A stretch of DNA of 64,000 nucleotides from Boswellia sacra (Eukaryota > Streptophyta > Magnoliopsida > Sapindales > Burseraceae), in NCBI GenBank assembly GCA_013180625.2, contig SNVD02009979.1:353054-417053 (forward strand). Direction: 5' to 3'. Positions 15,690 to 30,159 of this stretch are shown one piece after another; the first letter of the stretch is position 1; each line of letters opens with the position of its first letter. Under the pieces are notes generated by a model. That model had not been told where the DNA came from. It worked only from the letters and a program-made list of their open reading frames with translations, and did no database searches. Position numbers and translations under genes: made by a program.

Positions 15690-18462
15690 ATTGCTATTAA
15701 TCATGAACACAACTTGTAGATGACCTTCTCTCGTCCAAGTCCTTAGAAAAATCAGAGTTTACAAACCCCATGACACCATCTTCCTTGTCACTTGACTCCC
15801 CAAACTCCGTTATATTTCTAACGATTGCTTCCAAGTTAGCCATAAACCTACTAGCTAAACTCACTCCATATGCTATGTTAAGCCTAGTAAACCATAGCAT
15901 ATTTTAGTCTCCCTATTGAATTCTTATAGTTCTAGCAAGTATGTAGTTCGTTCCATCATCTAACCTTAGTACCAAATCAGTTGATAATTTGAAATGTAAG
16001 GCCAAAGGCGTGCTTACAGGCTCTACAACAGCCTTCCTAAAATTTCTAAGCATCCCCTTGACATACACTATTGAGAAAGAAATAACAGAAAATGATAGAC
16101 CTTTGCTTCTATCTCTATCCATGCCAAGAATCCTTTTAGCAGCCTCCAAAATTCTCTATTTCAAAATTCATAACTTTAGTAGCAACTCCAACTTATCTAT
16201 CTCTTCCATGAATTTACATGCTATACACATAACATTACCGTAATAACAAGTAAATCATGTAAAAAATTCATATAGCCTTACACAAACACAGCAGTCATAC
16301 CTGTTTCTTATAGTTATGTCCCAATATAAAGTTGTCAAACCATCTATAACATTGCCACGGTGACTGTCTTAACCAAAACAAGAATTTTCTCACCAGATGC
16401 TCTACCAAGCTTATCAAATTTATCTGATTGCTTCACAAAAATTCCTTCTCCTAGCTCACCATACAAAACCATGGTTTCTCCTTAAATATTTTTGAACCAC
16501 TCCCATTGCAGCTTGATAGTTATCTCTTTCTTGAAAAAATATTACGCTTGCAAATAACCTTGGTTTAAGTTCTCGAATTTCTGCCACAACTTTCAATGCA
16601 TAGCTCACAAAATTTGCATAACCAAACCAAGAAATGGGCTATCTCCCTCCTTGATCTATCCCAAGTTAGCTTATAACCCCTAACGTCACTTACAGATCAT
16701 GTGACAAAAACTGGATACCAAATTCATTATCAGTAATTTCACCTTCTATATTGACACCTACAACCTCAACTTGCTCCACCTCAAACTGATATATGTAATC
16801 ACTGGACGTGCTTGAAGCCTTTAGATCTCAATTGTCATCAATAGATTCACCTCTGTTGTCAGCTTACACCATTTCTAACTCATGAAATGCAGCATTCCAT
16901 ATTTCTCCTAGAGTTTCGAAATCAATTCCTAACGAAGAACATCTATTTTCCAAATAACTCACAATTTAAAATTTTTAGTAAGTTTTGCTTGTGCCAACAT
17001 AGACCTTACCTCTTCTAAAAATGGCTTTGCTCGTTTAATTAGCCAAACCATTTCTTTGAGGTATTTACCTTGCTGTACTAACTATGCTACACTCCTTGCA
17101 AAATTTGCTGAACTTTTTGTTAACATACTCAATACTATTATCTATTCTTATACTCCTGATTGACCTCCTTGATTAAGTTTTCATTAAAGCCTTCCAACGC
17201 TTAAAACCTTGTAGTAGATCTTCCTTGCATAAATCTAACAGTTCCTTCTCACTAACATGCTTGAGCTTTAAATGCCATATCCCTGCAGCTCGATCCTCAT
17301 CTTGAACTGTTACATCAGCCATAATAGCCAATGTTGAACCTAACAAGAGACACAAGCCATTCCTCCTTGTTCCTTTCATCACAACTAGTGATCCTTTCAA
17401 CACTTTCAAGATTACATTTTTAGCTTTAAATTGGCACCCTCTAGCATCTAATGTACCCAAAGAAATTAAATATCTTTTCAAAAAATAGAAACATGTGTAA
17501 CCTCTATTAAGAGTCTAATTATGCCATTTGTCATCGTGATCATGACAGAATGAAGACTTATTTCCTCACAAGCATTGTTATTCCTCACCAAGACTTTCCC
17601 ATTGTCAATAAACTTGTAATCAGCAAACAAAAGACTATTAAGTGTCATATGAAAACTCCAATCAAAACCAAGAACTCAATTTTCAGTCACAATTGTGAGA
17701 ACATCAGCACTCATATAACTATCTTCCGAAGCCACATCAACATCACCTGTTGAGTCCTTTTCCTTGCCTTTATCCTTTCTTTCTTGACAATTTCTTCTTA
17801 AGTGCCCCTCTTTTTGATAAATATAACACTTCTTCCTGAATCTTGACTAAGATCTATCATGATTCTTATCACAATCCCTCATGTCAAATCTTCCTCCTGC
17901 TAACAAACCTTCTGCTTCAAATTGACCCTTTGAATCAAACCTCATTTCAACATTCTTCGTAGTTTTAGCTGTCAGAACCTCTTCAAATTTCAGAGTTAGC
18001 ATACCATACTTCAAAGTATCAACAAAATTCTCCATGAACTTCGGTAGAATATTTAGAAAGATCACAGCCTGATCTTCATCACTAACCATAATTAATAAAT
18101 CTTTTGAAGTATTGAATCAGTTTCCTAAATTCATTAACATTATCAATTAGCATTTTACTATCGTCCATGCAAAAACCAAACAACTTTTGCTTTGTGTAGA
18201 TTCTTTTTGGAACTACTAGAGACATATACCGATCCTCATGTGTTTTCCATACTTTGGCTATTGTAGTCTCCTTTTTAACCTCTCGTAAAACCTTGTCACC
18301 AAGACCCAAAATTAAAGAACTATAGGCCTTCTTAAGAAGATCTTGTTTCTCTTCTTATTTCACAGTTTCTCACAGCTCTTTGTCACCATCCAAAGCTGTA
18401 ACAAGACCTTCCTTAACAAGAACTGTCTTCATCTTCCTCTTCCACAAGCCAAGTCATTCTAA
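15690..18462 (-). pseudogene. copia-1 gag-pol remnant
   Basis: Minus-strand pieces in order from the right: gag start LWKRKMKTVLVKEGLVTALD (about 18420); the gag segment ending in RFDMRDCDKNHDRS (17847-18309); the GAG-pre-integrase region with RYLISLGTLDARG and IWHLKLKHVSEKELL (17173-17481); the RT C-terminus with AAKRILGMDRDRSKG (15913-16149); and RNase H-type SRFMANLEA and DERRSSTSCVHD (15697-15900). Stops and frameshifts separate all of them. Order and motifs are those of Ty1/copia polyproteins of the Tnt1-like type. Integrase and most RT are too decayed to delimit. Confidence 0.8.
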
Positions 18463-18467
18463 CCTAT

Positions 18468-19832
18468 TGATGAACACTTAAATATGTATGCTTAATAAGA
18501 GCTTAATTCATCATATTGCATTAATAGTGTCATTAAATTCCTCAACTTAAGCATATTTGTAGTTTTTACATCATTTGAATTAACTTTCTCTTCATTTCGA
18601 TTTTGATGTAGGTTTGGTAAATTGAGCATAACTTTCTATTTATAAATCAGAATGGTGCAAATCTTAATGTTTTGGAAGGTGAATTCAATTATCTACAAGA
18701 GTGCATTTCATAAGAATCATCAAATTCGGACTCTTAGTGGACCAAAATTGGGCTTGAAGTGAACCCATCTGTAGATTCGGTCCAGCTTGACCATGCCTCA
18801 ATATTTTGATCGTATCTCTCAAAATACGTATCCAAATCATATGAATCAAGATGTTCTAGAAAGCTGAGAGAAATATCTATGACTTTCATGAAGACATGTG
18901 ATTAAAATTATCAAAAATTCAATGTCAAAATCGATGGTCAAAGTCGGTTCACCTAATTACCCCAATTGTCAAAGTTGGTGCATCTAATATTTGACAATTA
19001 TTCCTTTGTAATTTGACAAGTTTGCCCTTAAATGTATCTATAAATAGAGGTGCCTTGTGACCCATGAGGGCATCTTGGCCTTGCTCGGATCTTGTATTGT
19101 TTTTCTCTCTTGTATTTCTATGTTATTAATGAATTTCCTTTTTCTTATAATTTGTTTTCTTTCTCTTATAATGTCTTTCTAATTTCTCTCTTGCTAAGGT
19201 GAAAGGGTGAAACCCTTGATATGAGAGTAAGGATTCTCTAACCCTTTAATATGTGCTTAATAATCATAATCTTGTGTTGTTTATATGATTTATATTTATT
19301 TCTCTAATCAATCTTGGCACCACTCGTAAAGTGGAGGTCTTGATCCATTGTCGACAATCCTTGGCACATCAAATGCTTGGATCCTTTCTAGATGTCGTAT
19401 GGTTCTTCCTTACCGACATGAATCTAGTTAGGAACCTTGATTTGTTGTAGACATATGGAGATTAGCACATTGTATGCTTGAACTTATTTACAAGAAGTGG
19501 TATAAATATTGGTAATGAAGCAAATATAATTCATATAACTAAAACGGGTTATTTATCCTTATTTGATATCAAGGGCAGATCCACTAACCTTAGCTCTCAT
19601 TATTATTGTGTTAATTTCTCTTGTGTTATTCTCATTTATTGTTTAGGAACTTGTTCTTACTTATATTTGTTGATATTATCTTGTCATCTCTTTGAATCAT
19701 CCATATCATATTTGCTTACTTTATAGTTTGTAGCGCTAAAATTCCCTTCCTCGTGGATCGACCCCAGTCTCACCGGGTTTATTACTTCGACACTCCTATA
19801 CTTGGGAGGCAATCCTATTTTCGGATGTGTCA
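18468..19832 (+). repeat. gypsy-LOG 5' LTR
   Basis: Starts TGATGAACACTTAAATATG and ends CGGATGTGTCA; same length as the 3' copy. A TATAAATAGAGG promoter element lies near 19040, so transcription would start shortly after, near 19070. Confidence 0.95.
19034..19047 (+). promoter_or_regulatory. LTR TATA box
   Basis: TATCTATAAATAGAGG is a strong plant TATA motif, well placed inside the LTR to start the genomic RNA. The same motif is in the 3' LTR near 28826. Confidence 0.6.
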
Positions 19833-19838
19833 AGTTTT

Positions 19839-19856
19839 TGGCGCCGTTGCCGAGGA
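19839..19856 (+). promoter_or_regulatory. primer binding site (tRNA-Asp type)
   Basis: TGGCGCCGTTGCCGAGGA, six bases after the LTR end. It fits the 3' end of plant tRNA-Asp, the usual primer of Athila-type elements, with one mismatch to the common GGGGA form. Confidence 0.8.
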
Positions 19857-20033
19857 AGGTAAACTTGGCGTGCAAAATTGTAAGTGTTCTCTTTTCTCAT
19901 CTTAGATCTAAATTTTTTATTTTTTTGTGTGTTCATCTTTTCTTCTCTTTTCTTCTCTCTTTCTTGCATGAAAATTTGGTCACGAACATCTAGTGGTAGA
20001 CTTGTTAGAAAAACATTATCTTCCTTGGAAAAC

Positions 20034-22595
20034 ATGGCCGACAATCTAGTGGAAAGGTTCACGGATGAAGGGGACAACCGTTCCCAACAAAATGATCAAA
20101 ACCAACGAAGAAACCTCAGAGATTACATGAATCCGGTAAGGACTAGTGCACCATCTTGTGTAGTTTCTCCTCTAGATTCAATCCATTTCAATTTGAAGCC
20201 AAGTTTTGTTCGACTTCTACCCACCTTTCATGGCCTTGATGTGGAGAACCCATATTCGCATTTAAAACTCTTTGAAGAGGTATGTAATTCCTACACTGAC
20301 CCAAATTGTAGCATAAACACCATTAGATTAAAGTTTTTTCCTTTTTCTTTAAAAGATAAAGCTAGAACATGGCTACAAAATTTGAGGTCGAATTCCATCA
20401 GTTCATGGGATGAGATGAAACAACAATTTTTTAAAAAATTTTTTCCTACCCATAGAACAAATTCTCTTAAAAGATAAATTTCTGATTTCTCTCAAAAACA
20501 AAGGGAAACCCTTTACCAATGATGGGATAGGTATAAGGAACTACTTAATACCTGTCCTCACCATGGGTTTGAAACTTGGAGAATAGTTGCACACTTCTAT
20601 GAAGGGTTAACACCTCAAGATAGGCAACTAGTAGAATTAATGTGTAAGGGAGAATTTAAAGAAAAAGACCCTGAGGAAGCACTTGACTTCCTAGATTCCT
20701 TGGTAGAAAAGGCACAAAATTGGGACACTGCTGGCACCTATGAGGTACCAGGCAAGGCCCCAACCTCGACATCCAATAGAGGCATTTACAACCTTAGGGA
20801 AGACCATGACCTTCAAGCTAAATATGCATCCCTAGCTAGAAAAGTCGAGGCTTTAGAGATGAAAAAGAGTGGTCAATTGAAATCTATTCAAGAAAATGTC
20901 TGTAACATTTGTAATGACAATGACCATTCTACTGATGATTGCCCAACTTTTCCTGCCTTTAGGGAATGTCTCCATGACCAAGCCAATGCCTTGAACACTT
21001 TCAAAAGGCCAAATCACAATCCATACTCACAAACCTACAATCCTGGTTGGAGAAATCATCCAAATTTTAGTTGGAAAAATGACAATCATGCACAATCTTC
21101 ACAAGTCCCTTTTCAAACACAACAAAATTTTCAAAATTCTCATGATCATGCATATGCTCCTCCTCCTAGGAATGACCTTGAAGAAACATTGCATTCATTC
21201 ATTACAAAGCAAGAGACTTTCAATAGTCAAACTGCTCAAACATTAGCAAATTTGTCGGAAACTCTTGCAAAATTTGCATCTACATTTAGCATCCAAGAGA
21301 AGGGAAAATTTCCTTCTCAAACATTGCAAAACCCCAAAGATCAATCTAACTCAAATGCAGGGAGTTCAAATAACCATTATTTTGACCAAGCTAAGTCAGT
21401 CATGACCCTTCGCAATCGTAAGGTCGTTGAAAAACATATTCCTAACCCTTGTGAGAAAGAAGAAGAATCGATCTCTAAAGGGCAGGAAGAGGTGGCCAAA
21501 CCAACACCTAGCAAAGAAGAAACCAAACCCTCATCTGTGCCTCCATTTCCTCAAGCATTAGCCACACAAAAGAAGCCAACTCACAATTTTGAAATCTTTG
21601 AAATTTTCAAACAGGTAAAGGTCAACATTCCCTTGCTTGATGTGATCAAACAAGTACCTTCTTATGCAAAATTTTTGAAAGACTTATGCACTGTGAAAAG
21701 AAAACTGAATGTGAAAAAAAAGGACTTTCTAGCCAAGCAAGTAAGTGCTATTCTTCAAAATAATAATACAGTGAAATATAAGGATCCGGGTTGTTCTACA
21801 ATTTCATGTGTTATTGGAGACCATAAAATTGAACAAGCTTTACTTGATCTTGGTGCTAGTGTGAATTTGCTTCCATACTCGATTTTTCAGAAACTCAATC
21901 TAGGTGAGTTAAAGCCGACTTCGATGACTCTTTTACTTACTGATAGATCAATTAAAGTACCAAGGGGAGTAGTAGAAGATGTATTAGTTCAAGTCGATAA
22001 ATTCATTTACCCAGTGGATTTTATCGTCTTGGATACACAACCAGTGGAAGTAAGCAATTCAATTCCTGTTACTTTAGGGCGTCCATTTCTAGCTACCTCT
22101 AATGCTTTGATTAATTGCAGGAATAGATTCATGAAGCTATCATTTGGGAACATGACATTGGAACTTAATGTTTTTAATATGTGCAAACAACCACATGAAG
22201 AAGAAGATGAAATTGATAAGGCCAATGTGATTGAATCTATTATGGAAGATCACATCCAAAAAGGGAGTTCTTCTAACCCTTTGGAAACTTGTTTGGCGAA
22301 TTCATTAGAATCAAGTATGGAACTAGAGTCTGATCTTTCTGATATATGCTCTTTATTGGATTGTACACAGGTGATGGAAAAATGCTCAAAACCGAGATTC
22401 AAAGAATTGGGGCAAATGAATGAAAGCAAGGAAGAGGAAGCTCCCAAGTTAGAACTAAAGCCCTTACCTAAAGGACTGAAATATGCATATCTTGGGGAGA
22501 ATCATACATATCCGGTGGTAATTTCTTCATCCCTCACATGCGTGCAACAAGGTAAGTTGATAGAAGGCAAAAAAATGCAATTGGGTGGACTTTAA
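20034..22595 (+). pseudogene. gypsy-LOG gag-protease (two stops)
   Basis: From ATG (MADNLVERFTDEG) one frame runs to 22595, apart from TAA at 20475 and TGA at 20520. Gag core motifs include LLPTFHGLDVENPYSHLKLF and ARTWLQNL, then FYEGLTPQDRQLVE after the stops. A zinc knuckle CNICNDNDHSTDDC is followed by NPYSQTYNPGWRNHPNFSW. The aspartic protease has LDLGASVNLLPYSIF, with the D-x-G-A triad in the DLG form common in Athila-like elements, and GRPFLAT as the flap-side motif. Gag packages the RNA; the protease matures the polyprotein. A one-base loss in the A-run near 22573 shifts the frame into pol. Confidence 0.9.
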
Positions 22596-25329
22596 GAGAT
22601 ATAAAAGGCATTAACCCCTTAATTTGCACACATAGAATAAATTTAGAGGAAAATGCCAAAACATCTCAACAGCCTCAAAGGAGTTTAAATCCACACATGA
22701 AAGAGGTCATTAGGGCTGAAGTTCGCAAACTACTTGATGTGGGAATTATCTATCCTATTTCTGATAGTAAATGGGTAAGCCCTACACAAGTAGTACCTAA
22801 AAAATCTGGCATTACAGTTGTTAAAAATGAAAAGGGGGAATCATTGCCTACTCGTGTCCCATCTAGTTGGAGGATGTGCATTGATTATAGAAAATTAAAT
22901 GCTGTCACTAGAAAAGACCATTTTCCCTTACCTTCCCTTGACCAAATTCTTAAAAGAGTAGCAGGACACCCCTACTACTGCTTTCTTGATGGATACTCAG
23001 GCTATTATCAAATTCTCATTGCAATCGAAGACCAAGAAAAGACCACATTCACGTGCCCCTTTGGCACTTTTGCATTTAGGAGAATGCCTTTTGGACTTTG
23101 TAATGCCCCAGCCACTTTTCAGAGATGCATGTTAAGCATTTTCAGTGATATGGTTGAGCATTGTTTAGAGGTTTTTATGGATGATTTAACTGTCTTTGGA
23201 AACTCTTTTGACAATTGTCTTGAAAACTTAGAAAAAGTCCTAAAAAGGTGTGTAGAAAAAAGACTTATTTTGAATTGGGAAAAATGTCATTATATGGTCA
23301 CTTCAGGAATTGTCTTAGGTCATGTAGTGTCTTCTAAAGGAATTGAAGTGGACAAAGCAAAAGTGGAATTAATTTCCCATTTGCCTCCACCAAAAACAGT
23401 TAAAGAGGTTTGTTCATTCTTAGGGCATGCTGGATTTTATAGGAGGTTCATAAGAAATTTCAGTGCTATATCTAAACCTCTTTGTAACCTCTTAATAAAA
23501 GACACTTCTTTTGAATGGACTCAAGAATGTCAAAATGCCTTTGATAAATTAATTGGACTTTTAACAACTGCTCCAATTATGCAATCTCCTGATTGGCTCT
23601 TGCCATTTGAATTGATGTGTGATGCAAGTGACTACGCCGTTGGTGCTGTCTTAAGACAAAGAAAAGAAGGTAAGCCTTATGTGATATACTATACAAGTAG
23701 GACTTTAAATGATGCCCAAATGAATTACACAACAACTGAAAAAGAACTACTTGCTGTAGTATTTGCATTGGACAAATTTCGATTTTATTTAATTGGTTCT
23801 CCCACGGTTGTTTACACTGACCATGCAGTTGTGAGATATTTAATGTCTAAGCAGGATGCAAAACCTAGATTGATATGGTGGATCTTATTGCTCCAAGAAT
23901 TCAACATCACAATAAAGGATAAGAAAGGAGCCGAAAATGTCGTTGCAGATCATCTTTCAAGACTAACGACAGAGACATTAATTGAAACTTCACCTATCAA
24001 TGATTCTTTTCCTGATGAATTTTTATTTTTTGTTGCTACTGTACCTTGGTTTGCTAACATTTTAAATTTTCTTGCAACAGGAAAAATGCCACCTCATTGG
24101 AATGCTCAAGACAAAAGGAAATTTTTAATCGAGGTGAAAAATTTTTATTGGGATGACCCATATCTGTTCAAATATTGTCCAGACCAAATAATAAGAAGAT
24201 GCATACCCGATAGTGAGGTAAGTAGTGTCATTAACTTTTGTCATTCTGAAGCATGTGGAGGACATTTTTCATCTAGAAAAACAACTGCTAAAATCTTGCA
24301 ATATGGATTTTATTGGCCTACCTTATTTAAAGATGCACATGCGTTTTGCAAAACGTGTGAAAATTGTCAAAAAATGGGATCCATTTCAAAAAGAAACATG
24401 ATGCCTTTGAATCTCATTCTTGTTGTTAAAATCTTTGACTATTGGGGTATTGATTTTATGGGACCCTTTCCACCGTCATTTGGTTTTGTGTACATCCTTG
24501 TTGCAGTAGACTATGTTTCAAAATGGGTCGAGGCAATTCCATGTCGAAACAATGATCAAAAAACAGTTGTCAAATTCTTGAAAGAGAATATCTTGAGTAG
24601 ATTTGGAATTCCTCGAGCCATTATTAGTGATAGGGGTACAAATTTTTGTAACAAACCATTTGAAACTTTAATGAAGAAATATGGAATAACCCATAAAATT
24701 TTTACACCTTATCACCCACAAACAAGTGGACAAGTTGAATTAGCTAATAGGGAGATAAAACAGATATTAGAAAAAACGGTTAACCCAAATCGTAAAGATT
24801 GGTCTTTAAGACTTAATGATGCACTTTGGGCTTACCGAACTGCTTTCAAAACATCATTGGAATGTCTCCTTATAGATTAGTTTATGGAAAACCTTGTCAC
24901 TTGCCTGTGGAAATTGAGCATAAAGCTTATTGGGCCATTAAAACATTTAACACAAATTTGAATGATGCTTGCAAGTTACATAAACTCCAACTGAGTGAAC
25001 TTGAAGAAATCAGGAATGAGGCTTATGAAAATTCTAAAATCTACAAAGAAAAAATGAAGGTTTTTCATGACAAATCCATTGTTAGAAAATCTTTTGAACC
25101 TTCACAAAAAGTTCTTTTGTATGATTCAAGATTGCATTTGTTTCCTGGTAAACTTCGGTCTCGTTGGACTGGGCCTTTCATTGTTAAAAATGTTTTCCCT
25201 CATGGAGCAGTTGAAATCGAGAACCCAAAGAATGGTAATGTGTTTAAAGTTAATGGACAACGGTTAAAACCATTCTTTGAAAATTTTGACCAAAATGAAG
25301 AGTCCATTGCTTTAGTCGATCCTTTTTAA
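22577..25329 (+). pseudogene. gypsy-LOG pol: RT, RNase H, integrase (one frameshift)
   Basis: After the upstream shift the frame resumes at [14 protein letters not shown]. Counting from the Met at 22697: RT about residues 50-230 with [29 protein letters not shown] and catalytic FMDD at 160-163; RNase H from [12 protein letters not shown] (308) to [11 protein letters not shown]; integrase with an HX6H/CX2C zinc module ([15 protein letters not shown]), DFMGPF and DRGTNF as the first two acidic residues and [12 protein letters not shown] carrying the Glu. One base is missing near 24852, where TAFKT should run into [11 protein letters not shown]; the remaining 150 codons follow in the next frame to VDPF. 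Otherwise nearly intact. It copies the RNA and inserts the cDNA. Confidence 0.93.
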
Positions 25330-25453
25330 GGATTGATTTTTCCCGGTCAAGTGGCGGATACGGTACTCCGTGACTTTTAAAGTCGGTTTTTCAGTTCCCT
25401 AAAAACTGTTGCTCACCTTGCATTCATTTTCCTTTCTTTTCTCGCATTTTCAC
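25330..25453. other. pol to ORF3 spacer
   Basis: A short non-coding spacer between the end of pol and the accessory ORF. It includes a pyrimidine-rich stretch just before the ATG. Confidence 0.4.
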
Positions 25454-26002
25454 ATGGACACCATTCTCTCAAATCTGCACAAACATTTTCCCTCTCTTCC
25501 TCCAAATGATTTGCTTAAAATTTACAAAGCTCGCGCAGAAAGAGTAAGGATGTTGATGCGTAAGGGTATGCCTGTCGAAGTAATATGGTTAATTGAAGCC
25601 AAGGTTCGACTTTCTTATGAATTTTCAGATAATTTTGTTTCTAACATGCTAGGTATGGGAAAAAGCTCTTATGCCAAAAAGCGAAGAGCGAAAAGGTTAC
25701 AAGTTTGTCCCAAATGTGCAAGATGGACTTGTAACCAGCGTTACCGCTCCTCGGGATATTTGTCTAATAATCGAGAGGATAAACTACAGTTCATCAAGAA
25801 TGGACTGAGCAGGGAGTCTTTGGATGATATCCGAATGACTCTTGAGACGCATTCTTGCAGACTTGTGCAGCGCAAAATTTTTAATTTGTGTACACAATTC
25901 CGAGATGAGCAGGAACGCTATAGTCTTGGGAATTTAACTCAAAACGACCCTGTTTGCCAGTTTATAAGAAAACTGGATGGGAAGCATATCCCCAACTTAT
26001 AG
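25454..26002 (+). CDS. uncharacterised accessory ORF of the gypsy-LOG element
   Basis: A clean 182-codon frame from MDTILSNLHKHFPSLPPNDL to HIPNL. I chose this ATG over an upstream one at 25409 because the extra residues are Phe/His-rich and do not look like folded protein. The middle is strongly basic (SSYAKKRRAKRL) and is followed by VCPKCARWTCNQRYR, a CX2C-type cluster that could bind zinc; further Cys/His occur at HSC and NLC. No membrane segment is predicted by eye, so it does not look like the env-like ORF of other Athila elements. It lies between pol and LOG in the same orientation. It has no stops, although gag and pol do. Function unknown; RNA or DNA binding is a guess from the charge and Cys pattern. 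Confidence 0.7.
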   Translation: MDTILSNLHKHFPSLPPNDLLKIYKARAERVRMLMRKGMPVEVIWLIEAKVRLSYEFSDNFVSNMLGMGKSSYAKKRRAKRLQVCPKCARWTCNQRYRSSGYLSNNREDKLQFIKNGLSRESLDDIRMTLETHSCRLVQRKIFNLCTQFRDEQERYSLGNLTQNDPVCQFIRKLDGKHIPNL

Positions 26003-26320
26003 AAGGTGTTTAAGCCGTTTCTGGACGTAAAACCAGAGGAAGATGTGAGCCACAGTCACAACTTCCTGTACATATGCATGCGTGCCATCATTTTTGAATT
26101 TTAATGCCTCATAGCTATCATTTTTGAATTTGTATCTTTTGTTTGACTTATGGTGTCTCATTTCATCATCTTTTTTTGAGTTTTTATGCATTATTGTCAA
26201 CTTTTTCAACAAACAACCGAGCTACCTATATAGATGTAATCATTAGCATACCTTTTTGCACTCCATAAATACCACATCTCTTGTTCTCTTCTTCACACAT
26301 AGTTAGAGAGTTGCATAAAC
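26003..26320 (+). promoter_or_regulatory. ORF3-LOG spacer with candidate internal promoter/leader
   Basis: A 318-base gap, AT-rich, ending TCCATAAATACCACATC at 26262-26278 and a pyrimidine-rich leader (CTTGTTCTCTTCTTCACACA) 20-40 bases before the LOG ATG. CATAAATA could act as a TATA box, giving LOG its own mRNA. Inference from sequence alone. Confidence 0.35.
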
Positions 26321-26923
26321 ATGGAGGAAACTTCAAAACGTCGCATCCAAAATATATGTGTATTCTGTGGAGCTCGACCGGGTAAAAGTGAAGAGTTTGT
26401 CAAGGCAGCAAATTATCTTGGTAGACTACTGGCTGAAAGAAAGATTCATGTGGTTTATGGGGGAGGTAGCCTCGGGTTAATGGGTTGTGTGTCAAGAGTT
26501 GCACGTGTAGGAGGTAGTCAAGTTTTAGGAGTTATTCCTAAAGCTTTGGCTATAGAAAGCATTGTTGGAAAAACGGTTGGGCATGAGTTACAAGTCTCCT
26601 CTATGCATGAACGCATGGCACATATGCTCATCAATTCAGATGCTTTTATTGCTTTACCAGGGGGCTCTGGTACTCTCAAAGAAATTTTTTAAATTGCCTC
26701 TTGGGCCCAACTGAATCTCCATCAAAAACCTATAGGTTTGTTGAATGTTAACAATTTCTTTGATCCTTTAATAAGTTTTGTTGATGCAGCTGTGGAACAA
26801 AATTTTATCCCTCATTTGGCGAGACAGATCCTTATTTCTGCCACTTCTGCTGGTGAGTTACTCGACAAATTACAATCAGTTGAGTATGAACCTGACCCAG
26901 CTAGTACTCAAATTAATTGGTAA
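26321..26923 (+). pseudogene. LOG-family cytokinin-activating enzyme inside retrotransposon (one stop)
   Basis: A 200-codon frame, MEETSKRRIQNICVFCGARP to STQINW, interrupted only by TAA at 26690 after TLKEIF. LOG enzymes convert cytokinin riboside 5'-monophosphates to free cytokinin bases in the cytosol. Seen here: VCVFCG-type start, GGGSLGLMG (47-55), the Arg of HERMAHM, LPGGSGTLKE (112-121) with the catalytic Glu, WAQL, KPIGLLNV, and the C-terminal QILISATSAGELLDKLQ. Length is close to plant LOGs (about 200-220). Plant LOG genes have several introns; this one has none, which points to capture through an RNA copy. Tyr of the usual PGGYGT is Ser here. All but one codon read through, so the loss is recent or is read through. 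Confidence 0.93.
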
Positions 26924-27086
26924 GGAGGGCAAAACAAAAAGTGTAAATTGGATTTGAATCTCCGTTTGTAATTTTTTTCTTTTCTTGTCTTTTATTTTTA
27001 GCATTTTATAAGTCTTTCAGGTCATCTCTCTTGAATAACAGAAGCTTCAGGTAATGTCTCCTATACTTTATCTCTCTACATTTAAA

Positions 27087-27120
27087 CATTGAAAACAATG
27101 TTTCATTTGGTTGTGGGGAA
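27087..27120 (+). promoter_or_regulatory. CATTG-N4-CAATG motif shared by both LOG elements
   Basis: CATTGAAAACAATG followed within 15 bases by GTGGGG. The second gypsy element has CATTGAGGACAATG followed by GTGTGGGGG in the same place (62595-62631, minus). It is a short inverted repeat able to form a small hairpin, so a conserved cis signal is likely; the role is unknown. Confidence 0.5.
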
Positions 27121-27649
27121 AGGATAGTAGACATAAGTATGTTTTGAATTTTCTTTTCCTTGAAAAAAAAGGTGAAGTAATTAGATTCTGAGTGCGGCGT
27201 AAGGAGTTCAAATCCTCTTGAGATGCATTCTGGTTCAGGAATGGCAGAGTAAGGAGGACCAGTTTAAACTCTTGAAACCCATTCTAACCAATTTGTCATT
27301 TTATTTTGATTTTGTGAACTCATTTTAGCTAACTTGATATTATTTAGTCTTGATTTTTGAATTTTATAACAAGGAGTCTTATTCATTTCACTTTGAATTA
27401 TTCAAATCTATGAACTCTCACAACCTTATCATTTAATAAATTGTGTGTTTATGTACTCATTAAGCAAGTATTCATGAACCTTTCTTCACACACACACACA
27501 TACCTTGATGCATGATTGTGGGTGGCGAAATAAAATGTTGTAATATTTGAGTTCTTTTGTTTTGTTTAGGATAAGTGTTTAAAAAAAAGAAAAAAAAGAA
27601 AAAAAAGTGAAAAAAAAGAGAAAGCAATTGTGGATAAGTTTGGTCTCGT

Positions 27650-27935
27650 AGCCTCCTTAATTCGAGCAATTAAGCCCGAGGGGTGCCTCAACACCTAATA
27701 CCCTAAGACCAACTGGTTTGGGAGCTATTGGCCCAAAGCTCGCTACATGGATTAAGGAGAAAGCTTAATGGGATTGAACATTGCACTATCCACAAGTTTC
27801 TAAGCAAAAATAAAGCATCGGCAACCCGAGTTGTTAAGCTCGTAGGGGTGTCTTAACACCTAATGCCCTAAGGCCAATTGGTCTGGGAGTCATTAGCCTA
27901 AGGCTCGCTACATGGGTTAAAGATGCATTCCTTTA
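27650..27935 (+). repeat. two-copy direct repeat in the gypsy-LOG 3' region
   Basis: The unit 27650-27750 (AAGCCCGAGGGGTGCCTCAA, CCAACTGGTTTGGGAG, GCTCGCTACATGG) recurs at 27833-27921 with substitutions. It is non-coding. Similar short repeats are common between the last ORF and 3' LTR of Athila-type elements. Confidence 0.75.
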
Positions 27936-28238
27936 AAAAAAAAAAAAGAAAAAAATATATAAAATGAATAAATGCCCCCAACCTAAGGTTGTTAGCCTTA
28001 ACAAATATTAGAACCGATATGACTTCCTTCTAATAAGCCCCATAGTCATGTGTTGACTGAGCACAAAAAGGAGGTTTATTGATATCTTGACTGAAGGGTA
28101 CATGAGTGATAAAAAAAACGGTTGAGAGTTTGTTTATTTAGATAAAATCAAGGAGAGTGCAATAATGACTACCTTGGATGTAAAATTCTATAAATCACTT
28201 TTAAATAATAACGCTTTAATTGCTAGGGACTAGCAATA

Positions 28239-28253
28239 AGCTGGTTGGGGGTG
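28239..28253 (+). promoter_or_regulatory. polypurine tract
   Basis: AGCTGGTTGGGGGTG directly abuts the TGATGAAC start of the 3' LTR. It is the expected primer for plus-strand DNA synthesis. Confidence 0.7.
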
Positions 28254-29618
28254 TGATGAACACTTAAATATGTATGCTTAATAAGAGCTTAATTCATCAT
28301 ATTGCATTAATAGTGTCATTAAATTCCTCAACTTAAGCATATTTATAGTCTTTACTTCATTTGAATTAACTTTCTCTTCATTTCGGTTTTGATGTAGTTT
28401 CGGTAAGTTGGACATAACTTTCTATTTATAGATCAGAATCATGCAAATCTTAATGTTTTGGAAGGTGAATTCAATTATCTACAAGATTGCATTTCACAAG
28501 AATCATCAAATTCGGACTCTTAGTGGACCAAAATTGGGCTTGAAGTGAACCCATCTGTAGATTCGACACAGCTTGACCATGCCTTAGTATTTTGATCGTA
28601 TCTCTCAAAATACATATCCAAATCATATGAATCAAGATGATCTAGAAAGCTGAGAGAAATATCTATGACTTTCATGAAGACATGTGATTAAAATTATCAA
28701 AAATTCAATGTCAAAATTGGTGGTCAAAGTCGGTTCACCTAATTACCCCAATTGTCAAAGTTGGTGCATCTAATATTTGACAATTATTCTTTTGTAATTT
28801 GACAAGTTTGCCCTTAAATGTATCTATAAATAGAGGTGCCTTGTGACCCATGAGGGCATCTTGGCCTTGCTCGGATCTTGTATTGTTTTTCTCTCTTGTA
28901 TTTCTATGTTATTAATGAATTTCCTTTTTCTTATAATTTGTTTTCTTTCTCTTATAATGTCTTTCTAATTTCACTCTTGCTAAGGTGAAAGGGTGAAACC
29001 CTTGATATGAGAGTAAAGATTCTCTAACCCTTTAATATGTGCTTAATAATCATAATATTGTGTTGTTTATATGATTTATATTTATTTCTCTAATCATCTT
29101 GGCACCACTAGTAAAGTGGAGGTCTTGATCCATTGTCGACAATCCTTGGCACATCAAATGCTTGGATCCTTTCTAGATGTCGTATGGTTCTTCCTTACCG
29201 ACATGAATCTAGTTAGGAACCTTGATTTGTTGTAGACATATGGAGATTGGCACATTGGATGATTGAACCCATTTACAAGAAGTGGTATAAATATTGGTAA
29301 TGAAGCAAATATAATTCATATGACTAAAACAGGTTGTTTATCCTTATTTAAGATATCAAGGGCGGATCCCCTAACCTTGGCTCTCATTATTATTGTGTTA
29401 ATTTCTCTTGTGTTATTCTCATTTATTGTTTAAGAACTTGTTCTTACTTGTATTTGTTGATATTATCTTATCATCTCTTTGAATCATCCATATCATATTT
29501 GCTTACTTTATAGTTTGTAGCGCTAAAATTCCCTTCCTCGTGGATCGACCCCGGTCTCACCGGGTTTATTACTTAGACACTCCTATACTTGGAGGCAATC
29601 CTATTTTTGAATGTGTCA
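28254..29618 (+). repeat. gypsy-LOG 3' LTR
   Basis: Same length as the 5' LTR, same ends (TGATGAACAC...ATGTGTCA). Small differences are scattered, most densely around 28320-28445, so the element is not brand new. Confidence 0.95.
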
Positions 29619-29705
29619 CCTATCAACTTCTTAACTTCAAATTTGATTCCCATCTCAGCCACAAAAATAGCAAGAATCTCCCAAAAGAAAACTCCACTCA
29701 ACAAT

Positions 29706-29718
29706 GGCTCTGATACCA
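29706..29718 (-). promoter_or_regulatory. copia-1 primer binding site (tRNA-Met type)
   Basis: Minus-strand TGGTATCAGAGCC, three bases after the 5' LTR end, the usual initiator-tRNA-Met primer of plant copia elements. The gag start MGIKFEVKKLIG follows at about 29660 and is cut by the gypsy insertion. Confidence 0.85.
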
Positions 29719-29721
29719 ATT

Positions 29722-30159
29722 TGTTAGGACCTTGAAGTTTAATGTCTGTTACCAATGTTGAAACAACTCCTCTAAGCAAACACGTAACAATGATCTAAAC
29801 ATACATTAACGAAAAACAAACAACAGAACACATAAAGTTTAACGTGGTTCATTCCAAATCTGACCTACATCCACACATTGAGAGCTCTATTATTTTTGTA
29901 TACCAAAAAGAAGAACACATACATGTGAACACACTCTCAAATGAGAACCCACGCAACAGTCACAGTTTCGCCCCTTGAGTCCCTTACCTGAGTTCTACCT
30001 CTTATAGACTCAATACATAATTTGCATTAGACATAGCAGGAATTGCTGGTAACTATATAGTAGATAACTGCAACATATAATCGCTAATAACCTCCCATTA
30101 ACTGATAGGAAACTGATTTAAACTGCTCTACCCATGAGGTTTGTAAGACCAACTCCACA
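29722..30159 (-). repeat. copia-1 5' LTR
   Basis: Plus-strand form TGTTAGGACC...CTCCACA; about 438 bp. It retains canonical TG/CA ends, unlike the partner at 15036. Confidence 0.88.

Follow-up and report, generated by a model that had tools for sequence, protein, structure and literature searches.

A LOG gene lies in the 3′ part of a Ty3/gypsy retrotransposon that spans positions 18468-29618 of the window, the 64,000-nucleotide stretch of Boswellia sacra DNA analysed here, and comparison of copies from across the assembly places this gene under purifying selection during spread of the element in the B. sacra genome. LOG may long have been an accessory gene in Athila-like Ty3/gypsy elements as a lineage, paired with a second accessory frame (ORF3), kept by selection and acting on the host in a virus-like manner, a reading that we consider to be evenly poised. 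The assembly searched, which by its contents is that of a plant, comprises 7,431 contigs and 638.6 Mb.

Structure of the element and of its LOG gene

The element limits proposed in the first-pass annotation are upheld (Table 1), in that LTRs of 1365 bp each and a CCTAT duplication enclose LOG, together with a PBS-like TGGCGCCGTTGCCG, putatively of the tRNA-Asp type, and the polypurine tract GGTTGGGGGTG; ORF positions and a Pfam scan likewise place LOG in sense orientation 3′ of pol, as had been claimed. Scanning the element proteins against Pfam recovered gag, reverse transcriptase, RNase H and integrase in that order, whilst the separate frame at 24826-25329 gave no convincing Pfam match by itself. 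If sites are taken to change at 1.3e-8 per year, the K80 distance of 0.0347 between the LTRs corresponds to an insertion age of about 1.3 million years.

Table 1. Features of the LOG-carrying element, in window coordinates.
Feature	Position	Strand	Remarks
Target-site duplication CCTAT, 5′ copy	18463-18467	.	matches 29619-29623
5′ LTR, 1365 bp	18468-19832	+	K80 to 3′ LTR 0.0347
PBS region, TGGCGCCGTTGCCG first	19839-19856	+	starts 6 bases past 5′ LTR; read from sequence
gag, first part	19884-20477	+	PF03732 Retrotrans_gag, E 1.2e-10
gag end and protease region	20640-22595	+	weak PF13650, 19.6 bits (below cut-off 24.3)
pol	22697-24880	+	RVT_1, RT_RNaseH, Integrase_H2C2, rve
Integrase C-terminal end	24826-25329	+	by position, separate frame; equivalent ORF in a relative
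ORF3	25454-26002	+	exceeds cut-off for PF01623; relatives exceed that for PF05515
Pre-LOG leader	26261-26320	+	CATAAATA 57 bases upstream of ATG; pyrimidine tract ending CACATAG/TTAGAG
LOG gene, 216 codons	26321-26968	+	interrupted in window copy at codons 124 and 201
DNA of element-specific C-terminal tail (basic patch and LxLxL)	26921-26968	+	lost past second stop in window copy
Polypurine tract GGTTGGGGGTG	28243-28253	+	immediately 5′ of 3′ LTR
3′ LTR, 1365 bp	28254-29618	+	pairs with 5′ LTR
Target-site duplication CCTAT, 3′ copy	29619-29623	.	matches 18463-18467

A second, archaeal-type RNase H, which marks Tat and not Athila elements (PMC6317226, in part), was absent among the Pfam matches of pol, and this criterion points to Athila rather than Tat; the Athila trait of extra ORFs and a large non-coding region downstream of pol is present. 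The ATHILA ORF-1 domain PF03078 was not among the matches of the seven window proteins scanned, and this domain, found in 16% of Athila elements, is not required of all members (PMC6317226, in part). As to the surroundings, the element seems to be inserted in an older, reversed element (17900-18462 and 29624-29730), and the 3′ flank at 29624-29730 contains GGCTCTGATACCAA, which read in reverse complement presumably corresponds to a copia-type PBS; within the element itself, the spacer that separates ORF3 from LOG (window 26004-26210) has two occurrences of ATCATTTTTGAATTT.

Homology of the frame to LOG proteins is well founded, its first piece scoring 107.7 bits against TIGR00730 (cut-off 96.35) and containing the PGGxGTxxE motif, PF03641 matching both pieces, and two Arabidopsis LOGs being the best solved-structure matches; the NF058542 equivalog score of 79.6, against a cut-off of 300, was obtained with the 123-aa piece, i.e. 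an incomplete LOG, as query. The frame had, however, been described as full-length and as ending at 26923, and neither statement stands: a TAA at 26690-26692 (codon 124) closes it after 123 aa, and another stop follows in this copy with the TAA at 26921-26923, other copies reaching 216 aa (window 26968). With stops at codons 124 and 201, the window copy of LOG is therefore broken. As claimed, the gene is intronless to judge from protein alignments: over its leading 123 aa it is collinear with plant LOG proteins without gaps, as is the LOG of a relative over its entire length, and capture of LOG via RNA would fit such a gap-free ORF.

Immediately upstream of the LOG ATG, a leader of 60 bases is almost free of indels in 38 copies, and variants shared among copies are sparse in it (3.3 per 100 sites, compared with 16.0 over the preceding 50 bases, 5.3 in sequence still further upstream, 4.9 within the LOG ORF and 7.1 downstream), although the contrast between 3.3 and the surrounding 4.9-16.0 is modest. 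This leader contains CATAAATA, where ATAAATA precedes a CA by 31 bases on manual counting, as well as a pyrimidine tract that ends in CACATAG. It could possibly be an internal core promoter or a 3′ splice site (CACATAG/TTAGAG), both of which fit these motifs; a spliced env-like message has been reported for barley Bagy2 (PMC7264820, in part).

Copies, selection and the pol-less subfamily

A 40-base LOG probe, with up to three mismatches allowed, gave 763 + 790 = 1,553 matches in the assembly and none when reversed as a control; as copies of 11 kb these would amount to at most about 17 Mb, which is only an upper bound because many copies are partial. The first-pass annotation had allowed that LOG might be present in one element only, a proposition that fails in the face of both this abundance and the selection on shared variants described below, and the number of probe matches rules out a single accidental capture.

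Two sets of copies were compared. Forty long copies (L010-L049) were taken from the best 150 matches to the window LOG, these 150 being the ones scored from 11,363 first-look candidates of a protein search, and the long copies consequently lean toward well-kept ones; 20 short copies (L050-L069) were chosen, blind to frame, from 31 listed one-mismatch probe matches, skipping places near contig ends and some others. The proposal that LOG might recur at the same place in other elements is borne out, LOG lying at one position in many of the 40 longer copies, with the ORF3 region preceding it in 39 and the integrase region preceding ORF3 in 26. An open 216-aa LOG was found in 22 of the 40 long copies by direct reading (23 by alignment) and in 5 of the 20 frame-blind copies.

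For analysis of selection, variants were classed by the number of copies sharing them (singletons, 2-4, and 5 or more), with stop-making changes counted with N and the copies treated without a kinship model. Across 60 copies, N/S per site for LOG was 1.12 for singletons, 0.68 for variants in 2-4 copies and 0.31 for those in 5 or more, the end classes differing with a Fisher p of 9.6e-6; the frame-blind 20 copies alone gave 0.88, 0.46 and 0.29. For reverse transcriptase (RT), used as a yardstick, the values were 0.89, 0.33 and 0.04 (24 copies), for ORF3 a borderline 0.89, 0.60 and 0.45 (34 copies; p 0.057-0.075), and for the integrase end, with few sites, an erratic 1.14, 0.43 and 2.65; the comparison that supplied these last three series drew on 41 copies, of which 39 were used for LOG, 34 for ORF3, 24 for RT and 24 for INT. 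Mean pairwise dN/dS was 0.42 for LOG, 0.26 for RT and 0.50 for ORF3. Selection was not evident within the genome for the 16 tail codons alone, where the N:S counts of 23:4, 5:6 and 3:1 in the three sharing classes are too few. Singletons of LOG thus look neutral, as expected after insertion, whereas variants carried through replication do not. An enzyme preserved by selection in this way looks like the element's tool on its host.

Eight of the 40 long copies (L019, L024, L030, L031, L041, L042, L045 and L047) are pol-less: their 5′ LTR is followed by a gag that has diverged (DNA identity 73-74%) and that leads straight into the ORF3-LOG cassette. The cassette match starts at window 25339 in all eight, and the junction letters are nearly alike in the five copies compared; gag is open over 661 aa in one of these copies, and LOG is open over 216 aa in five of the eight. 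Retention of gag, ORF3 and LOG by these pol-less relatives fits a benefit of ORF3 and LOG to the element in the cell that produces them. It also bears upon the alternative that LOG is a gene transduced by chance and copied along without use, which we find barely credible: whilst many copies are broken, that of the window included, and 15 of the 20 frame-blind copies are not open, this alternative is contradicted by the fall in N/S from 1.12 for singletons to 0.31 for widely shared variants, and sits poorly with the listed matches from other plants, most of which show 60-71% identity and which retain the catalytic pair.

Element-type LOG proteins and their C-terminal tail

Searching with the LOG of a relative gave 7,920 matches, of which the 120 listed, mostly 60-71% identical, come from ENA/JGI and other contigs and include Reevesia and Diplodiscus (many loci), Xanthoceras, Populus and Paulownia; for most of these the label element-type derives from their clade and not from seen linkage. 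The host LOGs used for comparison were the best 120 of 7,998 scored, and comprise LOG1/3/4 and LOG8 types only. Element-type and host LOGs separate with support of 99/97 in a tree built from 28 and 20 sequences, respectively, and in a quick tree of 38 and 33, respectively, with support of 92-95, the alignments for both including the tail columns. Among viral contigs scanned with the relative P0003, four stretches fit a pattern and none encodes a relative.

The P0003 protein matches PF03641 with 140.4 bits, and a structure model of a relative predicts the LOG fold. Two plant LOGs, At2g37210 and At5g11950 (PDB 2a33 and 1ydh), are 45-48% identical to P0003 and have the same fold with the catalytic Arg and Glu kept; in contrast to the plant LOGs, the LOG of the element is a single uninterrupted, element-borne ORF in which Lys103 and Glu128 are mostly replaced and to which a basic and LxLxL tail is added. 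In 121 element-type LOGs, the catalytic Arg is present in 116, the catalytic Glu in 117 and an exact PGG.GT..E in 105. Lys103, which follows the catalytic Arg, and Glu128 are invariant in all 120 sampled host LOGs, but each is retained in only 6 of the 121 element-type proteins (replaced in 115 and 115), and cytokinin activity may accordingly be lost or changed. That the LOG of the element would still hydrolyse cytokinin-type nucleoside monophosphates, favouring a dividing, meristem-like state, has in our judgement as much in its favour as against it. The same clade-wide replacement of Lys103 and Glu128 with retention of the catalytic pair could also indicate that the altered pocket cleaves another N-glycosidic nucleotide, e.g. 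the plant TIR immune signal, in counter-defence; relatives of the SLOG fold such as ThsA have been solved with such nucleotides, and we regard this possibility as very improbable.

The tail distinguishes these proteins further. After a basic patch, 90 of 97 complete element-type tails end in LxLxL (23 of the 120 matches were omitted from this table as truncated or extended), and a tail of this kind occurs in none of the 120 sampled host LOGs. Most of the residues that lie between its leucines vary more than the leucines do, and the tail is constant across several plant families. Examined for the EAR repressor motif, element-type LOGs contain LxLxL, the window copy stopping before the tail, which resembles an EAR nuclear gene-repression tag and suggests that the protein has a task in the nucleus linked to corepressors, either in addition to catalysis or in its place, LxLxL by itself being a weak motif. 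Binding of the tail to TOPLESS-type corepressors, with altered host repression as the outcome, is a prediction to which we would give slightly less than an even chance.

Two other accounts of the protein must be weighed here. An ordinary cytokinin-activating LOG could keep host cells dividing, with the tail incidental; the two residues invariant in all 120 sampled hosts are, however, replaced in more than 90% of element-type LOGs, and constancy of the tail leucines relative to most residues between them also speaks against this account, which we regard as unlikely though far from negligible. Alternatively, the captured gene might have been a host LOG paralogue, of a LOG5 or LOG7 type outside the sample, that already had the basic and LxLxL tail. 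The restriction of the 120 host LOGs to LOG1/3/4 and LOG8 types leaves room for such a parent, but none of the 120 has the tail, the tail is constant in element-type LOGs of several plant families, and Arabidopsis LOG5 and LOG7 are not known to have a basic and LxLxL end; inheritance of the tail from the host appears improbable.

The Populus proteins P0062, P0069 and P0089 have the element tail, and P0062 falls within the element LOG clade; all three are probably retrotransposon genes, two of which are catalogued as host LOGL10, and these two entries should serve as a warning for annotators. P0104, P0112 and P0114 lack LxLxL, their basic patch being terminal; the first two of them take a basal position within the element clade, and P0112 retains host-like Lys103 and Glu128. 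These three proteins are possibly intermediates, or host paralogues.

The viral-type partner and a possible action on the host

ORF3 of the window matches PF01623 with 29.7 bits (cut-off 20.9) and PF05515 with 20.7, just below the cut-off of 23, whilst in the ORF3 of the relative in L002 both (27.5 and 30.1, respectively) are above cut-off. The protein has a basic patch and zinc-finger cysteines, and an alignment of 61 relatives reveals two invariant cysteines, further near-invariant ones and a basic stretch. Its search gave 151 matches, of which the 120 listed all have PF01623; named relatives among those listed are from Xanthoceras, Acer, Populus, Rhamnella, Citrus and Orobanche, and five proteins among them, from Orobanche minor, Rhamnella and (three) Citrus, contain ORF3 and LOG domains together. 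By eye, Rhamnella P0183 fuses the integrase end to ORF3, and with the joined ORF3-LOG proteins this indicates that the order of the cassette recurs in rosids and asterids. Contigs of the same size in both lists (8723) were considered as a sign of LOG-ORF3 linkage and rejected, because contigs of 1018 bases, on which the two genes would not both fit, coincide too.

On domain content, ORF3 is predicted to be a carlavirus-type nucleic-acid-binding protein. It shares with the cysteine-rich nucleic-acid-binding proteins of carlaviruses PF01623 and PF05515 (the latter pair in the ORF3 of a relative), a basic patch and conserved cysteines, and differs from them in having about 182 aa and in residing in a retrotransposon, where it is a putative suppressor. 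Its fold model is poor (pLDDT 60), and the best viral match, at E 1.1, is not significant; a fragment of the suppressor of chrysanthemum virus B and a protein of cherry mottle leaf virus, both weak leads, occupy ranks 1 and 2 of 20. RNA silencing is suppressed by carlavirus proteins of this kind, and the one from chrysanthemum virus B induces hyperplasia as well (PMC12172455, in part); by analogy, ORF3 may act as a silencing suppressor.

In the mechanism that we propose, ORF3 and LOG would form a virus-like pair directed at the host cell, in which ORF3 would dampen RNA silencing, LOG would be produced from its own leader, by way of an internal promoter or a spliced RNA, and the basic patch would bring LOG into the nucleus. 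Extended to its full scope, this becomes a two-protein kit for host manipulation, present in rosids and asterids, that combines a virus-type silencing suppressor with a LOG remodelled, with a changed pocket, as a nuclear, TOPLESS-recruiting effector, and the pol-less derivatives would live on gag and this kit; we put forward the extended proposal tentatively, as rather less probable than not.

Steinbauerova 2011 reportedly describes, in its abstract, two Athila-like elements similar to LOGL4. Ty3/gypsy elements from two species of Citrus and, under a laxer filter, from Populus have been found to contain LOG (YgdH) domains (Alvarado-Marchena 2022, PMC9289625, in part), a finding there called 'in line with' Steinbauerova 2011, and the idea of LOG in such elements is therefore not new as such. 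These Citrus and Populus elements likewise hold a LOG-family gene within Ty3/gypsy; compared with the parts of that account covered, the tail, the viral-type ORF3, selection, the pol-less subfamily and more than 1,500 probe matches are added here, and the literature searched, with Steinbauerova 2011 outside its scope and sources represented in part, contained nothing on the LOG tail, an ORF3 partner or selection. The Ty3/gypsy elements of orchids that encode an AlkB-type m6A demethylase similarly carry a host-type enzyme as an extra ORF, but differ in the enzyme, in their Tat/Ogre-like lineage and in that activity was shown in vitro (PMC9289625, in part). The downy-mildew effector HaRxL21 has a C-terminal LxLxL (EAR) on a foreign protein acting in plant cells; unlike the LOG of the element, which has the motif only, it is a pathogen effector for which TOPLESS binding was shown (PMC7446885, in part).

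In the B. sacra element, a hormone enzyme and a putative viral-type silencing suppressor travel together, with more than 1,500 probe matches in one genome. To our knowledge, few plant retrotransposons have an extra gene for which a known biochemical role is combined with evidence of selection. The short conserved tail yields a clear and cheap prediction, namely corepressor binding, and the system makes it possible to ask directly whether the hormone and repression pathways of hosts are steered by transposons as they are by pathogens and viruses. If the proposal of a two-protein kit is true, the kit would reprogram hormone state and repression where the element replicates.
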